The notes below the pieces were generated by a model. The model saw nothing but the letters and a program-made list of their open reading frames with translations, was not told the DNA's origin and did not search any database. The translations under genes were made by a program, and so were the position numbers. Of a stretch of 22,977 bases of DNA, positions 6,802 to 20,920 are shown in pieces. Origin of the DNA: a virus. The stretch is from positions 1 to 22,977 of IMG/VR virus record IMGVR_UViG_3300008113_005418; one strand, 5' to 3'. Position 1 is the stretch's first letter; each line of letters starts with the position of its first letter.

Positions 6802-9060
6802 TTAGGCTCCGGGGAAACGAATGATTCCGTCATCGTCTACTACCGGAATCTCGTGTGCAACCACGTCAAACACCACATCTTCTCCGGACATGTCAGCTGC
6901 AATGTCGCAGTTGCTGAGTCGATCAAACAAGATCCGCTTGCTAAGTGGCACACGGATCAACTGATCGATCTTGCGGCTCAGAGGTCGTGCACCCATCTTG
7001 GCATCATAGCCCTTGTCAGCCAGCATGTCTACCACAGCTTCGGTCAGGGTCAAGCGGATGTTTTTGTTGGCCAGACTTGTCTGCAGTTCTTGTGTGAACT
7101 TCAGCACCACTTTCTTGATGGCCAGGGTATCCAGGCGGGAGAATTTCACAATCTGATCGATACGGTTACGCATTTCAGGTTTGAAGAACTCCCGGAGTGC
7201 TCGTTCGTCTTCGCCGGTCTTTTCCTGTGATCCAAAGCCAATCATGTTGCCTTCGGCGGCAGCAGCACCCAGGTTAGATGTCAGGATAATGATGGAGTTC
7301 TTGACGTTGACCTTTTTGCCATTGCTGGAGGTCAACACACCTTCGTCCAGCATCTGCAGCAGGATGTTGGATACATCAGGGTGTGCTTTTTCAATCTCGT
7401 CAAACAGGATGATGCTAAACGGGTTCTTGCTGATATCCGAGATCAGTTTGCCGCCACCCACACTGCCGTCCTCAAAGCCCACATAGCCCGGAGGTGCACC
7501 AATCAAACTTGATACACTGTGGCGTTCCTGGAACTCACTCATGTCATATTTCAGCAAGGGCATGTCCAGGTTGGCACTCAGTAGTCGAGCCAGTTCGGTC
7601 TTGCCTGTGCCTGTTGGGCCCAAGAACAAGAAACTGGCCATGGGTCGCTTTTCGTTGCTGATGCCAGCAAAGCTGATGTACACACGATCCAGCACAGCAT
7701 CCACAGCAGCATCTTGACCGTACAGCTTTTGCTTGATGTTTGATTCCAGTTCCACAATCTTGGCCGATCGCTCGTTCTGCAGTTTGTCTGTTGGCACACC
7801 AGTCATGCGAGCCACCTGCTGTTCGATCATGTCACGGGTGATAGTGACTGTGCCCGCATCTTTCACACGCTCCCTAGCACAAGCAGCGTCAATGATGTCG
7901 ATACTTTTGTCAGGATTTTTGCGGTCATGAATGTAACGATTGGCCAGTTCCACTGCAGTGGTCATAGCTTCGGTGTCAATTAACACATTGTGAAACTGCT
8001 CCAGGCGTGGGCTGAGTCCAATCAGGATCTGTTCTGTGGTAGCAGTATCAGGTTCGTCAATGGCCAGGCGATAAAAACGACGCATGAGTGCACGGTCCTT
8101 TTCAAAGCTTTCGTAGAACTCTTCCCAGGTGGTTGACGCCACAATCTTGAGACTGCCCCGGGTGATCGCCGGCTTCAGCATGTTGGCAAAATCCAGTCCT
8201 GCACTGGAGCCTGCTCCTGCACCTTTCATAGTGTGTGCTTCGTCCACAAACAAGATACAGTTCTTTTTGGCTTCTAAGGCTGCAATCACAGCCTTGAACT
8301 TTTCTTCGAACTCGCCACGATATTTAGATCCTGCTAGGAGTGAACCAATTTCCAAGCTCCAGACTTCATGTCCTTTTAGAAACTCAGGCACACGCCCTGC
8401 AATGATTTCCTGGGCTAGGCCGTCCACAATGTGTGTCTTGCCCACACCTGGATCGCCTACCATTAGCACGTTGGCCTTGAAGCGTCGAGCCAACACAGTG
8501 ATCATTTCTTCCAGTTCTTTACCACGGCCAATCATGGGCTCCAGCTGATTCTTTTCGGCACGAGCAGTGAGGCTGGTGCAGTACTCGGTCAGCACTTCGT
8601 CGGCCTGCTGAGTGCTCATTTTGACATCTGAAGGTTTGTAGTTCTTTTGCCAGAACTCCACAAATTCTGCTTTCTTCATGCCATATTTCAGCATGTAGTA
8701 TTGTGCATGACTGTTGCCTTCGCTCATGATTGACAGATACAGATCAATCACGCTGAGTGCCCTACGACCAGTAAACATCACCTGCACGTTGGCACGGTTG
8801 AAAATTCTCTCCAGAGCCTGGGTCTTTTTGGGTGTGTCCACATTGCTTTTGACCAGGCTCACCAGGCTTGTGATGTAAGCATCTAGTTCCAGGTCCATCT
8901 GATCCACTGCTACGCCAAAAGCGTCGGCTGTTTTGCGAAATGGAGCAAACCGGATTATGCTCAACAACAGGTGTTCTGTGGTCACATATTCGTGTTGTTT
9001 TTGCTGTGCAATTTTCACAGCCTGATCCACAATGTGTTCAATTTCGGGAGTGGGGGTCAT
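6802..9060 (-). CDS. clpA: ClpA-like AAA+ unfoldase with intact ClpP-binding-type loop
   Basis: The product has 752 residues, full length for ClpA (about 758 in E. coli). Order: an N-domain with the Clp repeat start EYVTTEHLLLSI (24-35); AAA-1 with Walker A GDPGVGKT (202-209), Walker B ILFVDEAH (269-276) and arginine finger region RALMRRF (323-329); AAA-2 with Walker A GPTGTGKT (481-488), Walker B ILFDEIEKAH (551-560) and sensor 2 GARPLSRK (690-697). The ClpB/Hsp104 coiled-coil middle domain is absent. MIGFGSQ (606-612) aligns with the IGL loop by which E. coli ClpA docks on ClpP, and the following FFKPEMRNRID matches the same spot in ClpA. This points to a phage adaptor-type unfoldase that could use host ClpP. 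ATG 9060 has AAAGGA upstream and a sigma70 promoter at 9084-9112. The bacterial ClpS/ClpA pair is not seen here. Confidence 0.93.
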   Translation of the reverse strand: MTPTPEIEHIVDQAVKIAQQKQHEYVTTEHLLLSIIRFAPFRKTADAFGVAVDQMDLELDAYITSLVSLVKSNVDTPKKTQALERIFNRANVQVMFTGRRALSVIDLYLSIMSEGNSHAQYYMLKYGMKKAEFVEFWQKNYKPSDVKMSTQQADEVLTEYCTSLTARAEKNQLEPMIGRGKELEEMITVLARRFKANVLMVGDPGVGKTHIVDGLAQEIIAGRVPEFLKGHEVWSLEIGSLLAGSKYRGEFEEKFKAVIAALEAKKNCILFVDEAHTMKGAGAGSSAGLDFANMLKPAITRGSLKIVASTTWEEFYESFEKDRALMRRFYRLAIDEPDTATTEQILIGLSPRLEQFHNVLIDTEAMTTAVELANRYIHDRKNPDKSIDIIDAACARERVKDAGTVTITRDMIEQQVARMTGVPTDKLQNERSAKIVELESNIKQKLYGQDAAVDAVLDRVYISFAGISNEKRPMASFLFLGPTGTGKTELARLLSANLDMPLLKYDMSEFQERHSVSSLIGAPPGYVGFEDGSVGGGKLISDISKNPFSIILFDEIEKAHPDVSNILLQMLDEGVLTSSNGKKVNVKNSIIILTSNLGAAAAEGNMIGFGSQEKTGEDERALREFFKPEMRNRIDQIVKFSRLDTLAIKKVVLKFTQELQTSLANKNIRLTLTEAVVDMLADKGYDAKMGARPLSRKIDQLIRVPLSKRILFDRLSNCDIAADMSGEDVVFDVVAHEIPVVDDDGIIRFPGA

Positions 9061-9083
9061 TGATTTCCTTTAGGGGTTTGTTT

Positions 9084-9112
9084 ATTATATTACTTACGTA
9101 GCTGATTTGCAA
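9084..9112 (-). promoter_or_regulatory. Sigma70 promoter TTGCAA-17-TATAAT for clpA
   Basis: The minus strand has TTGCAA (9112..9107, 4 of 6), exactly 17 bases, then a perfect TATAAT (9089..9084). It lies in the 66-base gap between dnaJ and clpA and would give a leader of about 17-18 bases containing AAAGGA. It suggests clpA can be read by unmodified host polymerase. Confidence 0.7.
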
Positions 9113-9126
9113 ACAATCTGACAATA

Positions 9127-9906
9127 TTATGATCGGTGTTGTTGTATTGCTGTGACTATTTCGGGTGCGATGATTTTGGGAATTTGAGCCTGCATGCGAA
9201 TCATTAGGTCACCTTTTTGCCCATGTCGATCTTGTATGCCATGTCCACGCAGGCGCATCACTGTGCCGGGTTGGGTACCAGCCGGCACCCGAACCACTAG
9301 ATTGTGACCCAGTATGTTGGTGACTTCTACTTCGGCACCCAAAATCATGTCCCAGATGCTGATCCTGTGTTCGGTATGTAGATTTAGACCTTCTCGACGC
9401 CACTGTGCCATGGGCTGTATTCGAAACTGCACCACCAGGTCCATGCCCCCAGGTGCAACTCCACCGTACTGCACCTGGTCTCCGTCGTCAATGCCTCGAG
9501 GCACCTCAATGGCCACTGTGCTGGAGCCAGCAGAGGTGCTGACATTCACAGCCCGGCTTCCGCCCTGTGCTACATCTTGTAGGCTTACCCAGATGGTCAT
9601 TCTCACATGATTGCGTCGAGACTGTTGCGGTTGTCCAAATTGTTGCCCGAACATCTGCCCAAACATGTCGTGCATGTTGAATCCACCGCCACCGGGAAAT
9701 CCCGAAAACTGTGGACGGGGATTGTCGTATTCAGCTCGTCGTGCGTCGTCGCCCAGCACACCATATGCTTCTTGTATTTCCTGAAACTTGACAGTGTCGC
9801 CGCCTTTGTCCGGATGAAATTTTGATGCAAGCTTTCTATACGCCTGCTTTATTTCGTCAGGCAAAGCCGACTTGTCTACACCTAGTATTTGATAATAGTT
9901 TTTCAC
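9127..9906 (-). CDS. dnaJ: DnaJ/CbpA-like J-domain co-chaperone without zinc finger
   Basis: The product has 259 residues. The J domain fills residues 2-62: [16 protein letters not shown], the essential HPD (31-33), and [14 protein letters not shown] Gly/Phe-rich linker (68-93) follows, then two C-terminal beta-sandwich substrate-binding domains (about 100-259; [30 protein letters not shown]). The four CxxCxGxG zinc motifs of class A DnaJ are absent, so this is class B, CbpA-like. It should stimulate host DnaK. The only start that keeps the J domain is GTG 9906, with no Shine-Dalgarno. A near-consensus sigma70 promoter (9914-9942) would start transcription almost at this codon. It precedes clpA, forming a chaperone/unfoldase pair. 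Confidence 0.92.
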
Positions 9907-13429: not shown

Positions 13430-14285
13430 AATTTTCAAGTATCTTCTGAACAAAAAAATTACTAGTGACAAGGTCAAAATGATGGTAATCTCTAGCATAG
13501 TCTAGATTTGACAACTGAAGTAATTGATTCTGTCTATAAAAATTATTTGATAAAAACCAAATATCAAAATTTACCTGTGTAAACACACTTCTAGATTCTT
13601 TTTTTACATGATCAGGCAACTGATTGAATTCAGTCAGTGTAGACGGAAAAGAGTCAGGCCAAGAAACATCTTTAATGTTGTTCCAACTTCTTGTTACGTG
13701 CTCAAAAATCTCGTTCACATCAGAATTTGGTATTATTCCATTGAATATGGTAGTGCCTGCATTGGATTTTTTTAAACTGATATAACAATTAATAAAATTT
13801 GTTATATTGTCAGATTCTGAATCGTATTTGTCAGATCTCACTCTTCTGTCTTCGTCGGGTAAGTTAGTGTCAGGCAACTCTCTACGATGACCATAAGACC
13901 ATAACACTACCATTTGTTTAGGCGCAACTTCTTTAATAATTTGCTGAGATCGACGACTAATCCAGTTATTACTGGCACCGTCCATGCTGACATTGATGCA
14001 TCGACGACCAGTTGCAGCAGACAGCACCTGCGGCCATGTAAAATTGTACGGGCTACCAACGCCCACAGTAAAACTGTCACCCACACACCATATGGAGTTT
14101 TTCAACTCACTTAAAGATTGAGGCCATTCCGCGTCTCTAAATCCTCGACTGTTATAGTTGTATTCAACATGATGCGGATATGATCGAAAGTGATCTTTGT
14201 TCAAACATTCTTGTAAACAATCTATACCTGAAAATTTCCATTTTTTATTTTTTCTTGATTGCAGAATCAAATCACCTAATATCAT
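13419..14285 (-). CDS. SGNH/GDSL-type hydrolase-like protein
   Basis: I choose ATG 14285, which overlaps the stop of the DUF2061 gene as ATGA; a TTG at 14300 would add five residues. The product has 288 residues. CVGDSFTVGVG (67-77) contains the GDS nucleophile block, DGASNN carries the block III G-x-x-N oxyanion residues, and RDYHHF (265-270) gives the C-terminal D-x-x-H. So the Ser/Asp/His set of an esterase or lipase-like SGNH enzyme looks complete. It is the last gene of the coupled 13.4-17.6 kb cassette and, like the opposing sulfotransferase gene, is AT-rich. It could remove acyl groups from a surface glycan. Confidence 0.75.
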   Translation of the reverse strand: MILGDLILQSRKNKKWKFSGIDCLQECLNKDHFRSYPHHVEYNYNSRGFRDAEWPQSLSELKNSIWCVGDSFTVGVGSPYNFTWPQVLSAATGRRCINVSMDGASNNWISRRSQQIIKEVAPKQMVVLWSYGHRRELPDTNLPDEDRRVRSDKYDSESDNITNFINCYISLKKSNAGTTIFNGIIPNSDVNEIFEHVTRSWNNIKDVSWPDSFPSTLTEFNQLPDHVKKESRSVFTQVNFDIWFLSNNFYRQNQLLQLSNLDYARDYHHFDLVTSNFFVQKILENFNG

Positions 14286-14482
14286 TGTTGACCCCAGCAA
14301 ATTTTGTTCCAGATGCGTTCGTGCGCATAATAAAGTATGGTATTGGTAACCATCTGTGCAAGCCCAATTACACCAGCCACGGCAAAATTACCGGTCAACA
14401 AATATGCAATCAAGAATGTGGCACCGGACCCAGTGATGCGCCAACTGATGGTTTTGACCAAGCTTCTGCGTGGTGAGTCCAT
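14282..14482 (-). CDS. DUF2061 family small membrane protein
   Basis: The product has 66 residues: a basic start (SPRRSLVKTISWRITGS), a hydrophobic segment FLIAYLLTG (about 23-31), a second one from AVAGVIGLAQMV, and the end TILYYAHERIWNKICWG. The K-[AT]-x-[ST]-WR-x-x-[AG]-[ST] start and YYxHERxW end match DUF2061 as I recall it. It would be an inner-membrane protein of unknown function. Its start overlaps the stop of the nucleotidylyltransferase gene as TAATG, and its stop overlaps the SGNH start, so it belongs to the coupled cassette. Confidence 0.82.
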   Translation of the reverse strand: MDSPRRSLVKTISWRITGSGATFLIAYLLTGNFAVAGVIGLAQMVTNTILYYAHERIWNKICWGQQ

Positions 14483-14892
14483 TACAGTTTGCCCGCAGCT
14501 CGTAACTCGGCACGTATTTGAGTGGCAGAAATTGAGTGAATTTCTTCGCCTAGATCATGCTGTGAGAATGTGTAGCCTACCCCGCGGCCGTAGCTGATGT
14601 CCACAATGTTGGGCACCTGCATGATGATATAATCCTCGTTGTAGACAAATCCTTCCGCAGCCAAAGCATCAACAATGTTGGCCTTGACAGTGTCTAGGTC
14701 AAACGGATTGTCTGTCTGTGCAGCAGTGCGCCCAGCGCCAGCATCCTGCCCCACAATGCCACCAACGTCACGAATCTGAATACACACTTGCCCAGTTTCC
14801 ATCAAGGCTTTTTTAAACAGTGCAGTGTGTCCTGGGTGCCAAGGTTGCCACCGGCCCAACATCTGTGTAGTGGGTCGTTTCCAATCAAACAT
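14482..14892 (-). CDS. Small nucleotidylyltransferase (HIGH superfamily)
   Basis: The product has 136 residues, near the minimal size for this fold. GRWQPWHPGHTALF (13-26) is the Rossmann HxGH signature and ISATQIRAEL (121-130) the second active-site motif. The WQPWHPGH version and ISATQIR resemble NMN adenylyltransferase (NadM) and ATP-sulfurylase-type families. In marine phages I recall such proteins being named cytidylyl- or adenylyltransferases. The middle region is shorter and has VGGIVGQDAGAGRT. It overlaps the end of the kinase gene by 8 bases, so the two enzymes are probably made together, possibly acting on the same substrate. Confidence 0.8.
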   Translation of the reverse strand: MFDWKRPTTQMLGRWQPWHPGHTALFKKALMETGQVCIQIRDVGGIVGQDAGAGRTAAQTDNPFDLDTVKANIVDALAAEGFVYNEDYIIMQVPNIVDISYGRGVGYTFSQHDLGEEIHSISATQIRAELRAAGKL

Positions 14893-15322
14893 TTGGTGTT
14901 TCCTTTTGATAATAATCTTTGAACACGCGGAACAGTTGTTCGTGTGTGTCAGTGAACCATTTGCTCACATGGTAGTCTACCCGGCTGGGTTTTTCAAACA
15001 TTTTGTTAGTATCTTCAAATCTACCTTCTGCGATAGTGTCCATCCATACCACATAGTCCGCAGCAAATCCTGCACGAGCAGCTTCGGTAGGACACACAAA
15101 GTCTGCCACGGCAATCCGTCCGGCCTTGATCACGCCGTCTGCAAGATATCTCATGCGATGTGCTTGGCGTTGACGACCTTCGGGGGTGAAGTCCCAGTCA
15201 TTGTATTCGGCTCGCACAGCATCAGCATTGAGCCATACTCCACCTACCAGGCGAGCAAAAGGCTCAGCCAAGGTGCTCTTGCCCGAACCAGGCAAGCCCA
15301 TGATTAAAATTCGTTTGGTCAT
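14885..15322 (-). CDS. APS-kinase-like P-loop kinase
   Basis: The product has 145 residues. MTKRILIMGLPGSGKST gives a perfect Walker A (GLPGSGKST, residues 9-17); VWLNADAVRAEYNDWDFT (29-46) and GRQRQAHRM (49-57) follow the D-x-D-x-V-R and R-x-x-x-x-x-R-[IM] pattern of adenylylsulfate kinases (CysC), and FVCP (75-78) matches their conserved FISP-like turn. A shorter or altered substrate is possible. I prefer the ATG at 15322, which overlaps the upstream stop as ATGA and has AGGA 7 bases upstream, over the ATG at 15328. Together with the nucleotidylyltransferase and two sulfotransferase-like proteins it suggests PAPS or nucleotide-activated metabolite chemistry. Confidence 0.82.
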   Translation of the reverse strand: MTKRILIMGLPGSGKSTLAEPFARLVGGVWLNADAVRAEYNDWDFTPEGRQRQAHRMRYLADGVIKAGRIAVADFVCPTEAARAGFAADYVVWMDTIAEGRFEDTNKMFEKPSRVDYHVSKWFTDTHEQLFRVFKDYYQKETPNV

Positions 15323-15939
15323 CGCCATTTCCTTGATGAATGCCGTGCTAGATCGTCTGTGGCATGATGATCTACAGGACTGAAATACTTACTGTTGGTA
15401 TCCACCTCCAGTATTTTTTCCACTGCAGGATTGCTCCAGTCAATAGGAAAGTCCAACTGTTGTGCCACATTTCTCAAATAGGCTGCACCATACAGGTGCA
15501 ACAGTTCATAACTGAGATAAGCATCTGGGGTCAACTGTTGATAGCTGGTCAAGGCCTGACTCAGGGTAGGCTGTCCCCGCACACGCTGTTCCTGCATGGC
15601 CACAATGTTGCGGTCTCTGCCCAGTAGAGCAATCTTTACTGCATGTCCCTGTTGCTGCACTGCGGACACAAATTGCTCAAGGTCAGGCACAGTGAGTGTG
15701 CCGTTGAGAGCGTAAGGAACTGAAATGCTGGTCACATACCAGTCGCTTTGACTCCAGTCAAACTTGGACAGTGTATCAGGTCGGACCCAGTAATCGGCAA
15801 ACGGCTCTTGGTCATGACCCTGCCAGTATTGATCCAGCAGGGCTTGCCAGCCCTGCACGTCAGGATGTAAAGCAAAGATCTTGCTCCACATGTGATTGCC
15901 CGAGCCCTGGGGCCCGGTTAAGATTAACACAGTTTTCAT
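15319..15939 (-). CDS. P-loop sulfotransferase-like protein
   Basis: The product has 206 residues. The start MKTVLILTGPQGSGNHMWSK has a strand followed by a P-loop (G-P-Q-G-S-G-N) and helix, a form I recall from sulfotransferase-like P-loop proteins of phages; the SGN in place of GK[ST] argues against a kinase. A later RDRNIVAMQEQRV segment near 120 could be the 3'-phosphate motif. The first start overlaps the stop of the oxygenase gene (ATGA) and the end overlaps the kinase gene, so it is tightly coupled. The acceptor and reaction are unknown. Confidence 0.65.
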   Translation of the reverse strand: MKTVLILTGPQGSGNHMWSKIFALHPDVQGWQALLDQYWQGHDQEPFADYWVRPDTLSKFDWSQSDWYVTSISVPYALNGTLTVPDLEQFVSAVQQQGHAVKIALLGRDRNIVAMQEQRVRGQPTLSQALTSYQQLTPDAYLSYELLHLYGAAYLRNVAQQLDFPIDWSNPAVEKILEVDTNSKYFSPVDHHATDDLARHSSRKWR

Positions 15940-16605: not shown

Positions 16606-17574
16606 TCAATCAAACTTCATTTTTTGCACATACGGGAACCATTTTTTACGCAGTTCAGTCAAGTGCTTTCTCACACCTTCGGGAGTATGCTCTGCTGGCA
16701 CAGTAAACATCAAGTTCTCGTCAAAGAACTGTTTGGCTTCGGGGCTGCGAATAGCAGCAACAAACTGCCGGTTGTAGTGGTCCACTTGATTTCTAGGAGT
16801 TCCTGGCGGCATGGCAATGGCCCAGGCAGCATACACGTTGAGTCCAGGCACAGTTTCTTGCCACAGTGGAACATCGGGGATACGAGCCAGGCGCTGTTCA
16901 CCAGCCAGTGCAATGTATTTGACCTTGCCGCCTTTGACCAAGCCATAGGCCACTGCAGTGGGCAAGATACCAAATTCCACATGTCCCCCAGCCACGTCAT
17001 TCACCGCCTGTGCTGGACCTTTATACATCACGCTGCTGACCAGTTGGCGATTGCCTTGGCCTTTGTCCATGAGATATTCAAACACCAGTTTGTGTGCACC
17101 TGCGCCCAGACCAAATGTGATGGGTTGCTGGGTGTTTTTGATGCGAGCCAGCAACTCTTTCGGAGTGTTGGTAGGACTGTTGATGTTGGCCACCACAGCC
17201 AGTGGGCTCTTGGCAATAGTGGTCACAAACTCCATGTCAAATGGATTGAATTTGATCTGATCAGGATACCAGTGGTCAACGGCTGTGAACACACCCTGGT
17301 GACTGGTGACATACAAATTGTCGCCTCGGGGCTCAAGCTTGGTAAACCAGTTCAGGGCAACCACTTCATCTGCTCCTGGACGATTTAGAACCACATAGCT
17401 GGTGCCAGGATTTTGCTTTTCCACAATGGCTGCAACTGCTCTAAAGCTGACTTCGTTGCCAGATCCAGGACCAAAACCTGTGGTCACCGTCACAGTGCGT
17501 GGTGGTTCAAAAGCATGTGCTGCTGTGCCCAAAACAACAGCAGCAGCAGCAATAAGTAATTTTTTCATTGACAT
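16606..17574 (-). CDS. tctC: TctC/Bug-family periplasmic substrate-binding protein
   Basis: The product has 322 residues. A clear Sec signal peptide (MSMKKLLIAAAAVVLGTAAHA, cleavage after Ala21) is followed by a complete Bug (tripartite tricarboxylate transporter) binding protein. Landmarks are the start VTVTTGFGPGSGNEVSFR, the YKGPAQAVNDVAGGHVEFG region near 180-200, and LARIPDVPLWQETVPGL (about 230-246) followed by MPPGTPRNQ. Typical members bind citrate, C4-dicarboxylates or aromatic acids; the ligand here cannot be told. ATG 17574 has AAGGAG (17580-17585) with good spacing. No TctA/TctB membrane genes are visible, so it would depend on the host's. A bacterial-type transport gene in a phage operon is unusual. 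Confidence 0.92.
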   Translation of the reverse strand: MSMKKLLIAAAAVVLGTAAHAFEPPRTVTVTTGFGPGSGNEVSFRAVAAIVEKQNPGTSYVVLNRPGADEVVALNWFTKLEPRGDNLYVTSHQGVFTAVDHWYPDQIKFNPFDMEFVTTIAKSPLAVVANINSPTNTPKELLARIKNTQQPITFGLGAGAHKLVFEYLMDKGQGNRQLVSSVMYKGPAQAVNDVAGGHVEFGILPTAVAYGLVKGGKVKYIALAGEQRLARIPDVPLWQETVPGLNVYAAWAIAMPPGTPRNQVDHYNRQFVAAIRSPEAKQFFDENLMFTVPAEHTPEGVRKHLTELRKKWFPYVQKMKFD

Positions 17575-19062: not shown

Positions 19063-19350
19063 TTATTTTCCGGCAGCGCGGAGGTTGGCACCTTTATTGA
19101 AACTGGGGCTGTAGGGACTCGTGCCCTGGATGTTGCCTTTGCGAGCACTCCACTCGTAGCCAGCACGGTGACCTGAACAGTCTTTGGTGCACTCAGACCC
19201 CAAAAAAGACAACTCATCCAGTTGTTCATCTTCGTTTTTGTTGCGTCCGGCACAGTGAGCACGTTGACTAAACCCTCGTGGCCTGGCACAATTGATAGAG
19301 CTTTTGTATTTGGTGCTCCACTTTTCGGCCACAAACTCTTGTGCTCTCAT
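19063..19350 (-). CDS. Cys-rich small hypothetical protein conserved in T4-like phages
   Basis: The product has 95 residues, starting MRAQEFVAEKWSTKYKSSINCARPRGFSQRAHCAGR. It has four Cys (about 21, 33, 54, 58) and His and is basic, possibly a small metal-binding or DNA-associated protein. The start ATG at 19350 overlaps the stop of the preceding 35-residue gene (TAATG). I recall related sequences in marine phages without known function. It is one of four adjacent products sharing an M-x-x-x-E-[FI] N-terminus. A 33-base AT-rich gap separates it from the SGNH-like gene. Confidence 0.72.
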   Translation of the reverse strand: MRAQEFVAEKWSTKYKSSINCARPRGFSQRAHCAGRNKNEDEQLDELSFLGSECTKDCSGHRAGYEWSARKGNIQGTSPYSPSFNKGANLRAAGK

Positions 19351-19457
19351 TAGACTTCCGCAGCAATCAGTTCGGCCAGTTGGGCCCTGGCCACCTGAAA
19401 GTTTTCGGCCTCAATTGTGTAGGTACGGCCATTGGTGGTAAATGTGTATGTTCTCAT
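19350..19457 (-). CDS. Very small protein, 35 aa
   Basis: A 36-codon frame from ATG 19457 starts MRTYTFTTNGRTYTIEAENF and continues with an amphipathic helix (QVARAQLAELIAAEV). It is held by overlaps on both sides: ATGA with the preceding gene and TAATG with the next. The alternating beta pattern and the coupling argue that it is real; no family is known to me. Confidence 0.6.
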   Translation of the reverse strand: MRTYTFTTNGRTYTIEAENFQVARAQLAELIAAEV

Positions 19458-19807
19458 TTTTTCTTGGTGGGCACGTTCTTGGCGGCACCACTACGGTTGG
19501 GGTTGGGGTCTTGACGACGTTTACGAGCAGCAGCACTTGCACGGCCTTTTTTGCCCAGTGCATGTGCTTTGGCTTGTGGCAAACACTTGGGCTTGCCTTC
19601 AGAGCTTGATCCTCTGGCACAGTCGCCACGGATCTTGCCATCGGGTCCAAAACGAACCCACTTTTGTTTGAACCACTTCTTGAGATCTTCTTCCATGGCC
19701 TCTTCACTCACAGGCACACAGTTGGGCACCCGGCGGTCGCCCTTTTTCTTCATGCCCTGGCGACGATAGCCCTGCCAGCAGCTTTCGAGAATTTCGCGGA
19801 ATCTCAT
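19454..19807 (-). CDS. Basic small protein with Lys/Arg-rich C-terminus, conserved in T4-like phages
   Basis: I start it at ATG 19807, which overlaps the preceding stop as ATGA (MRFREILESCWQGY); a longer frame from 19846 is out of register with this packing. The product has 117 residues. PDGKIRGDCARGSSSEGKPK (about 56-75) leads to AHALGKKGRASAAARKRRQ and ends KNVPTKKK, strongly basic, suiting nucleic-acid binding. I recall near-identical motifs in many cyanophage and pelagiphage proteins of unknown function. The short start peptide FREILE has an [IL]-x-E end like T4 prohead-protease sites. Confidence 0.72.
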   Translation of the reverse strand: MRFREILESCWQGYRRQGMKKKGDRRVPNCVPVSEEAMEEDLKKWFKQKWVRFGPDGKIRGDCARGSSSEGKPKCLPQAKAHALGKKGRASAAARKRRQDPNPNRSGAAKNVPTKKK

Positions 19808-20010
19808 GACTTGTTGCCCCAGTTGGCAGCACCTTTTTTGCGACATTGTACCAGGGCACCTGACGCATAGGCACTAGGCCAAACTTTGTATCTGCTGCGA
19901 ACTTTGTTGTAGCAGGCATCTTTCTTTTCTGCCAACACCAGGTCTGCAAAAGCAGGACCGCCACACCGGGGGCAGGTCATTGGGGGTTGGTCAAATTCGT
20001 TTAGTCTCAT
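19804..20010 (-). CDS. Small conserved phage protein with CxxC zinc-like start
   Basis: The product has 68 residues: MRLNEFDQPPMTCPRCGGPAF, then a DACYNKVRSRYKVWPSAYAS block (32-51) and GALVQCRKKGAANWGNKS at the end. CPRCGG is a zinc-knuckle-like pair (C13, C16). The KVRSRYKVWPSAYASGALVQC stretch is a block I recall as recurring in marine T4-like phages. It overlaps both neighbours as ATGA. Function unknown; an internal capsid or DNA-bound protein is one possibility. Confidence 0.75.
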   Translation of the reverse strand: MRLNEFDQPPMTCPRCGGPAFADLVLAEKKDACYNKVRSRYKVWPSAYASGALVQCRKKGAANWGNKS

Positions 20011-20891
20011 TTTTTAGGTTGCACCGCTGTGGGCATGTTTCGATACACACGCTTTTGTGGATCCCACACTGTTTTTAGTGGACCTGCACCGGCCAACTGT
20101 TTGAGTCTGGCCATGGCCGAATCAAATCGATCAGCAGGCATGTTGCCAACTTTTTCTTGTTCTGCCACACCTTGCTCGTTCATGCTTTGTGCGCTGGCAT
20201 AGAACTTGGCGTGGGGTGCAATCATGTCGCCTATCCTGCGCTCTAATCGTGCTGGATTACGGCGAACCGAGTCGGGAATTTCGTTTGCAAAATACTCGTA
20301 TAGTTCTTCGAACATGGGTTTTGTTGGATCAATGTATCCGGTATTTACAAAGTGTCTAACTTCATCAATGTGCCGCATCAATATGTCTTTGAGATAAGGA
20401 TTTGGTGCAGGAGCAGGTGTTGCGCCACTTAGCTTTTTTGTTGTCGAATCTTCGTTTGCGCTTTCGGCCAAGCCGGGAATAGGTGAGAGACCTTTTGGAA
20501 CTTGGCCGGTCCAGTATTGGCTTCCGGGTTCGGCTGGCAAATCTCGCTTGGCATTGGGCTCTGCTAAATCACACAACTTGGTGTGATGTAAGAATATGGT
20601 GCTGCCACAATCGTAACAAGGATAATCTTCAGTTGGATCATCGCTGTCATCCAGCGCAAATTCGTTCAGTTCGTCTTCACTATCAGCATAGTCATTAAGG
20701 CTGACATCACCGGCTTGAAAACTTTGTGGTCCATAGTTGTAGAGGTCAACCACAACAAATGCACCATCACGGCCAATTTCTCGCACGTCGCCAGTCCGGC
20801 CCTGATATTTAACCGCACCGGTGATGATCACAGGATCGCCCACACTAAACGGTGCAGCAGCGCGGCCTTCAGTAAATTCTTCAAACAACAT
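20007..20891 (-). CDS. KOW-like domain hypothetical protein with acidic middle
   Basis: The product has 294 residues starting MLFEEFTEGRAAAPFSVGDP. Residues 15-65 look like a small beta barrel (VGDPVIITGAVKYQGRTGDV, VVVDLYNYG, a KOW/SH3-like fold). An acidic linker with CYDCG (92-96) follows, then LAES (141-144), a helical central part (HIDEVRHFVNTG, ELYEYFANEIP, LERRIGDMIAPH) and VAEQ (242-245), with a basic end. It is the first gene of the 19063-20891 chain, behind a GGAG site and a GCTAAATA octamer. It may be a processed capsid-associated protein; this is inference. Confidence 0.7.
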   Translation of the reverse strand: MLFEEFTEGRAAAPFSVGDPVIITGAVKYQGRTGDVREIGRDGAFVVVDLYNYGPQSFQAGDVSLNDYADSEDELNEFALDDSDDPTEDYPCYDCGSTIFLHHTKLCDLAEPNAKRDLPAEPGSQYWTGQVPKGLSPIPGLAESANEDSTTKKLSGATPAPAPNPYLKDILMRHIDEVRHFVNTGYIDPTKPMFEELYEYFANEIPDSVRRNPARLERRIGDMIAPHAKFYASAQSMNEQGVAEQEKVGNMPADRFDSAMARLKQLAGAGPLKTVWDPQKRVYRNMPTAVQPKK

Positions 20892-20912: not shown

Positions 20913-20920
20913 TATTTAGC
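20913..20920 (-). promoter_or_regulatory. Late-type GCTAAATA before the 19-21 kb chain
   Basis: The minus strand reads GCTAAATA, 6 of 8 to TATAAATA. A transcription start about 16 bases before the ATG at 20891 would keep the GGAG site in the leader. The gene chain 20891 to 19063 would be its unit. Confidence 0.45.

Follow-up and report, generated by a model that had tools for sequence, protein, structure and literature searches.

Putative cleavable capsid-targeting leaders on unrelated, mostly basic proteins encoded by a coupled gene cluster in a phage fragment

The window analyzed here, an IMG/VR virus fragment of 22,977 bases, carries on its minus strand, from 20891 down to 19063, five translationally coupled ORFs, four of which have products that begin with the motif M-x-x-x-E-[FIL]. 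In the order of the cluster they encode proteins of 294 aa (20007-20891, start MLFEEFTEG), 68 aa (19804-20010, MRLNEFDQP), 117 aa (19454-19807, MRFREILES), 35 aa (MRTYTFTTNGRTYTIEAENF, 19350-19457, without the leader motif), and 95 aa (19063-19350, MRAQEFVAE), all on the minus strand, and consecutive ORFs overlap by 4, 4, 4, and 1 bases, the last two overlaps being those of the 35-aa ORF with the 117-aa and 95-aa genes. The mechanical start of the 117-aa ORF is at 19846; we took 19807 instead because it gives the 4-base overlap and is conserved in relatives. An earlier note on this DNA had called the four motif-bearing genes adjacent; all four do belong to one coupled cluster, but the motif-free 35-aa ORF separates the third from the fourth. 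The first cluster gene, that of the 294-aa protein, is preceded at a distance of about 22 bases by GCTAAATA (20913..20920, minus strand), a possible T4-late-type promoter element. Exact copies occur only three times in the window (20913, 6169, and 5194), each on the minus strand and ahead of a gene start. The core CTAAATA was observed 4 times compared to 1.3 expected, which is not significant, and the motif is only suggestive of a late-type element.

The leader of the 294-aa protein, MLFEEFTE↓GR (20868..20891, minus strand; arrows mark putative cuts, here after Glu8), is identical in L002, a 92% relative, and is the weakest cleavage match among the window leaders, with Phe at P3. It is followed by an acidic middle part and, after GVAE↓Q (residue 244), by a basic C-terminal domain of 50 aa; the net charge is −12 for the whole protein and +6 for this domain, which recurs after GVAE↓G in an 877-aa protein (L004) and also in G004. 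Neither PHROGs nor Pfam gave a match to the 294-aa protein, nor did tblastn against isolated phages. In the 68-aa protein, the leader core MRLNEF (19993..20010, minus strand) runs into DQP, and the adjoining cleavage Glu is lost; then come CPRCGG, a possible zinc ribbon, the site VLAE↓KK, and the basic body KKDACYNKVRSRYKVWPSAYASGALVQCRKKGAANWG (net +9). In the alignment, relatives of this protein have MIIDELFE↓A, MKINQFVNE↓S, MRATEFVAE↓K, and also ELFE↓S, and the invariant site of the family is the later LAE↓K (VLAE↓KK in the window). MRLNEFDQP is a degenerate copy of the leader, and the 68-aa protein would be cut at VLAE↓KK instead; in L196 its body follows directly after MRAHEFVSE↓. The protein matches phrog_727 (3.7e-21).

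The 117-aa protein consists of the leader MRFREILE↓S (19784..19807, minus strand), body 1 (CWQGYRRQGMKKKG...PNCV), the site AMEE↓DL (residues 38-40, 19688-19696, minus strand), and body 2 (DLKKWFKQKWVRFGPDG..., net +18); a relative, L231, has MRASEFVTE↓A ahead of the CW body of this protein, which matches phrog_727 (3.1e-19), phrog_9737, and phrog_4359. The leader of the 95-aa protein, MRAQEFVAE↓K (19324..19350, minus strand), has the 9-residue form that is also found in S-SZBM1_140 (MRFRQFIIE↓A), and the site QLDE↓LSF (residues 44-46, 19213-19221, minus strand) separates a first body (KWSTKYKSSINC...) from a second one (FLGSECTKDCSGHRAGY...). Mature bodies are thus basic in three of the four proteins (+9 in the 68-aa protein, +2 and +18 in the 117-aa protein, and +7 in the 95-aa protein). 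The carriers had been described before as small unrelated proteins: the bodies are indeed unrelated, but the 294-aa protein is not small, and taken as a whole it is not basic. No function could be assigned to the bodies of the cluster proteins from Pfam or PHROGs, and the AlphaFold models were poor (mean pLDDT of 41 for the 95-aa and 52 for the 117-aa protein).

In three relative genomes, M-x-x-x-E-[FIL] is found at 41 of 1266 gene starts (3.2%) versus 51 of 5087 internal Met residues (1.0%; p=6e-8), and the stricter M[RK]xxE[FIL]x(1-2)E at 18 of the 1266 starts versus 1 of the 5087 internal Met residues (p=3e-12). In the window, at least 4 of ~32 genes bear the first motif (p=3e-4, with an approximate gene count and a motif picked post hoc), and at least 4 of them lie within some run of five (p ~1e-6, for a motif picked after the data were seen). 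With the ORFs and starts confirmed as well, the common start peptide of the four neighboring proteins pointed out in the earlier note is borne out. Loss of the motif in close relatives had been named as an argument against it; instead, the closest relative, L002, keeps all four leaders (MLFEEFTE, MRLNEFAQP, MRFREILE, and MRAQEFVAE), and the motif is kept in the wider families. The leader consensus among relatives is M-R-A-x-E-F-[VI]-x-E. In 20 sequences of the 117-aa protein, E5, L7, and E8 are invariant, and IMG/VR relatives of the 95-aa protein keep MRAxEF[VI]xE, while the downstream part can differ completely. The codons of the tag vary (E5, GAA 95 and GAG 48; F6, TTT 93 and TTC 50; A3, GCA, GCC, or GCT) and its residues are held; what is conserved is therefore the peptide and not the DNA. 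We also weighed an origin by DNA-level duplication of a gene's 5' end and discarded it, the tag codons being too diverse.

T4 gp21 cleaves behind the Glu of L/I-x-E. Positions 4 and 7 of the T4 CTS are used for targeting and positions 8 and 10 for processing (PMC9026906). If V or F is allowed at P3, the gp21 consensus closes three of the four window leaders; the cut after [IL]-x-E that had been proposed holds for these three in relaxed form and fails for MRLNEFDQP, which lacks a Glu at the usual site. Furthermore, leader-borne bodies are also found internally in longer proteins, preceded at a fixed offset by [LIVMF]-x-E. This applies to 15 of 22 internal contexts of the CW body, to 69 of 70 of the KVWPS body of the 68-aa protein, and to 18 of 19 contexts of the KYKRS body. 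Body 2 of the 117-aa protein (KWF) is preceded by [LIVM]xE↓DL in 44 of 44 internal contexts and by MRAEEFISE↓DL when N-terminal, and the second body of the 95-aa protein (CTKDC) by L/I-x-E, with P2 free, in 69 of 69 contexts. Since the contexts are related by descent, binomial p-values for these counts are overstated and descriptive. The same body can be seen behind a leader and behind another site in the pairs MRAHEFVSE↓AKKDACY (L196) and VLAE↓KKDACY (window), and MRAEEFISE↓DLRKWF (L052) and AMEE↓DLKKWF (window); a third pair matches two leaders, MRASEFVTE↓ACWSDY (L231) and MRFREILE↓SCWQGY (window).

When the relative records were searched with Peptidase_S77, every one of the 12 that reach 250 kb or more had a match, as did one record of 195 kb; the remaining, shorter records had none, as expected for fragments. 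In three of the relatives (G004, G009, and G012), the head genes form a T4-like operon of portal, small core genes, protease, scaffold, and gp23. A small gene located between portal and protease also begins with a peptide resembling the leader (MILNEFFNKEPEAYQD), and the gp23 propeptides end, at an aligned position, with L-K-E↓N, L-T-E↓A, or L-A-E↓S. The 23-kb window itself contains no gp21, portal, or capsid gene; a search for the phage's own gp21 gene, as suggested before, was thus negative there and positive in the large relatives. G004, one of the genomes with Peptidase_S77, shares local gene order with the window (95-aa gene, methyltransferase, and receptor-type gene), from which we infer that the window's phage very probably encodes a gp21-type protease, too.

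Scanning viral contigs for the DNA pattern of the leader, independent of the body, gave at least 127 sites in at least 120 stretches. Among the listed viral matches, 117 of 127 were start-like, that is, with a close upstream in-frame stop and an open frame of at least 40 aa, versus 19 of 120 in the bacterial and archaeal control. Single-linkage clustering of the 409 tagged proteins by body gives 38 clusters, and in the largest ones two or more unrelated domains are lumped together; judged by sequence, one leader heads dozens of unrelated bodies in the relatives. The tagged cargo comprises small Lys/Arg-rich proteins, a cytidylyltransferase (L329), an amidoligase-like protein, a HicA-domain protein, and a weak SprT-like match. 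In some relatives the same bodies occur without the leader, for example in a deaminase fusion of G012 that starts MLLSDFRIKNL.

T-even phages carry variable internal proteins (IPs) that are recognized by their leader, and the IPs of T4 are injected into the host along with the DNA (PMC12373910). According to the T4 record, MKTYQEFIAE↓A is the start of both ipII and ipIII, and MKTFKEFTSTTTPVSTITEA (MKTFKEF...STITE↓A) that of ipI. The leader described here resembles the T4 CTS at the targeting and processing positions (aromatic/hydrophobic, E-F, and [LIV]xE), at a length shorter by one residue and with MRLNEFDQP deviating. As in IPI, IPII, and IPIII, a short N terminus with K/R2, E-F, a hydrophobic P3, and Glu at P1 is found on unrelated, mostly basic proteins; a gp21-type protease and a T4-like head operon are present (here in relatives), and a distal cut site occurs, as it does in ipI. 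In contrast to the T4 IPs, the leader usually has 8-9 and not 10 residues, with R-A common, and there are several bodies per protein with protease-type sites between them. Two things would go beyond T4: the far greater variety of cargo, and protease sites that apparently serve as linkers joining interchangeable basic domains. Cyanophage proteins of the gp114 type (Syn9 gp114 and P-SSM2_123; PHROG 727) also contain the domains CWxGY..GMKKK and KVWPSAYASGA, often with [LIV]-x-E between them, but as one long protein encoded in the neck/terminase region, whereas here they are distributed over individual genes, each with a leader. The ejection proteins of phiKZ and SPN3US, which have propeptides, are a further case of large phages packing cleaved proteins with their DNA (PMC5694885, PMC10052503); this likeness is one of description, and the protease of the relatives studied here is the T4-type Pfam Peptidase_S77.

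Published virion proteomes of cyanophages give protein presence and no N termini. For S-CREM2 (OR473000), there is a virion proteome with coordinates (PMC10665884), to which we applied a pattern based on the T4 CTS positions (hydrophobic at 4 and 7, [LIVMF] at 8, and Glu at 10). This T4-spaced leader was present on 5 of 28 non-structural virion proteins, 1 of 167 undetected proteins, and 0 of 24 structural proteins (p=2.4e-4, a value qualified by the choice of the pattern, whose positions were from the literature and whose residue classes were set after the sequences had been viewed). The virion leaders belong to the SAM hydrolase (MKDFDSFLEE), gp13 (MKDLHSFLTE), the kinase (MKRFDAFLTE), the cytidylyltransferase (MKNFSSFLTE), and gp136 (MQTFSMFFSE); carry-over into the virion proteome is possible according to the authors (PMC10665884). 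The cytidylyltransferases of S-CRM01, S-B68, S-H34, and P-RSM6 have starts like that of S-CREM2, and a cytidylyltransferase in cyanophage virions is also reported elsewhere (PMC3037559). S-SZBM1_140, likewise a cytidylyltransferase and the sole enzyme detected by MS in that phage, has the 9-residue form given above (PMC9146016). The leader-bearing ORFs 191 and 192 of S-SZBM1 are absent from the MS table (PMC9146016), and therefore, either detection was incomplete or the leader rule is imperfect. The virion cytidylyltransferase, kinase, and SAM hydrolase of S-CREM2, S-SZBM1, and S-SM1 resemble the proteins of the window in having a T4-spaced or 9-residue leader (PMC10665884, PMC9146016), but they are enzymes, whereas small basic domains are found here. 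A leader is not mentioned in the accessible portions of the papers on these virion enzymes. Within the open-access literature (subscription journals being outside our scope), the leader is not described for these phages, and "capsid targeting sequence" appears together with "cyanophage" only in a review.

In our model, the coupled operon would be expressed late, and each leader (M-[RK]-x-x-[EQ]-F/I-...) would bind to the prohead core, by analogy with T4. A gp21-type prohead protease would then cleave behind [LIVMF]-x-E, both where the leader ends and between the domains, for which the recurring consensus argues strongly. The released, mostly basic bodies would remain in the head alongside the DNA and may pass into the host along with it. 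It is highly probable, in our view, that the start peptides direct their proteins to the capsid and are then cleaved off, in the manner of the leaders of T4 IPI-IPIII. The analogy with T4 had been drawn in the earlier note; it was upheld by the alignment with the T4 IP leaders and the protease in the large relatives, by the consensus at interdomain junctions and in gp23 together with the unrelated bodies, and by equivalent leaders on cyanophage virion proteins confirmed by MS. With much more reserve, we lean toward a wider proposal for large aquatic T4-like phages: a common leader of 8-10 residues would direct numerous unrelated proteins, enzymes among them, to the prohead, and cargo with several domains would consist of strings of interchangeable small domains with prohead-protease sites between them, so that one polyprotein would give rise to several head-packaged and probably injected proteins.

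As another possibility, the leaders would target the prohead and be cut, but the proteins would serve in the scaffold or core, as T4 gp67/gp68 do, and be degraded or lost instead of being kept and injected. The head-operon gene between portal and protease starts similarly (MILNEFFNKEPEAYQD), and the multiple internal sites look like scaffold processing. However, the tagged proteins are variable, accessory, and encoded away from the head operon, the bodies between the sites are conserved and mostly basic, and equivalent leaders are found on enzymes that are in mature virions, which makes a scaffold role improbable. Clearly shuffled bodies and an evident cassette structure would also be left behind by recombination, if new bodies had been joined to one shared 5' end (ribosome site, start codon, and first codons) without any targeting. 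We regard such a relic as very improbable: the codons of the tag vary while its residues are held, the end of the tag coincides with protease sites inside other proteins, and T4-type leaders of another length occur on virion enzymes of cyanophages.

That the tag is also found on diverse accessory enzymes would agree with an N-terminal signal for localization, stability, or binding at a target other than the capsid (phage nucleus, membrane, or a degron). This hardly seems credible in view of the protease consensus at the end of the tag, the match to the T4 IP leaders, the association with virions in the MS data, and relatives with a T4-like portal-protease-scaffold-gp23 operon. If the peptides are capsid-targeting leaders, the packaged cargo of uncultured phages would be readable from sequence; head-packaged and injected proteins of such phages are otherwise normally known only by proteomics. 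The leader and the junction rule would provide a testable criterion for virion cargo across a large group of phages from the environment; cargo found in this way may include proteins for counter-defense and host takeover. The leader also offers an explanation for the recurrent kinases and cytidylyltransferases in cyanophage virions.

Some further observations concern individual genes. A cytidine-deaminase domain (PF00383) is fused to the CTKDC basic body, without a leader, in G012 (C1:66196-66828) and in L031-L036, and L213 has a HicA-toxin domain (PF07927, 1.7e-8) right behind the leader-like MRYQEFKE, possibly a packaged toxin. The Cas9-like virion protein gp12 of S-CREM2 (L262, OR473000, 7704-10313, minus strand) contains the leader-like LRFASFMAE↓A at residues 17-25 and not at its start; LSLDSFIKE↓A is placed much the same in S-CRM01 g128. 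The window itself encodes a cytidylyltransferase-like protein (PF01467; 3800-5188, minus strand) that has no leader, although VAE↓S and VAE↓G sites occur within it, and a ClpA/B-type ATPase (phrog_4871) next to a DnaJ-like protein (6802-9906, minus strand). An adenylylsulfate-kinase/AAA_33-like gene, a gene that looks nucleotidyltransferase-like by eye, and a DUF2061 membrane protein gene (14282-15328, minus strand) are possibly a sulfate-activation set. A TctC-type periplasmic solute-receptor gene with an apparent signal peptide (Pfam PF03401, 1.5e-27) lies at 16606-17574 on the minus strand; L002 and G004 have similar receptor genes in the same position, indicating a conserved phage-borne receptor without its transporter.
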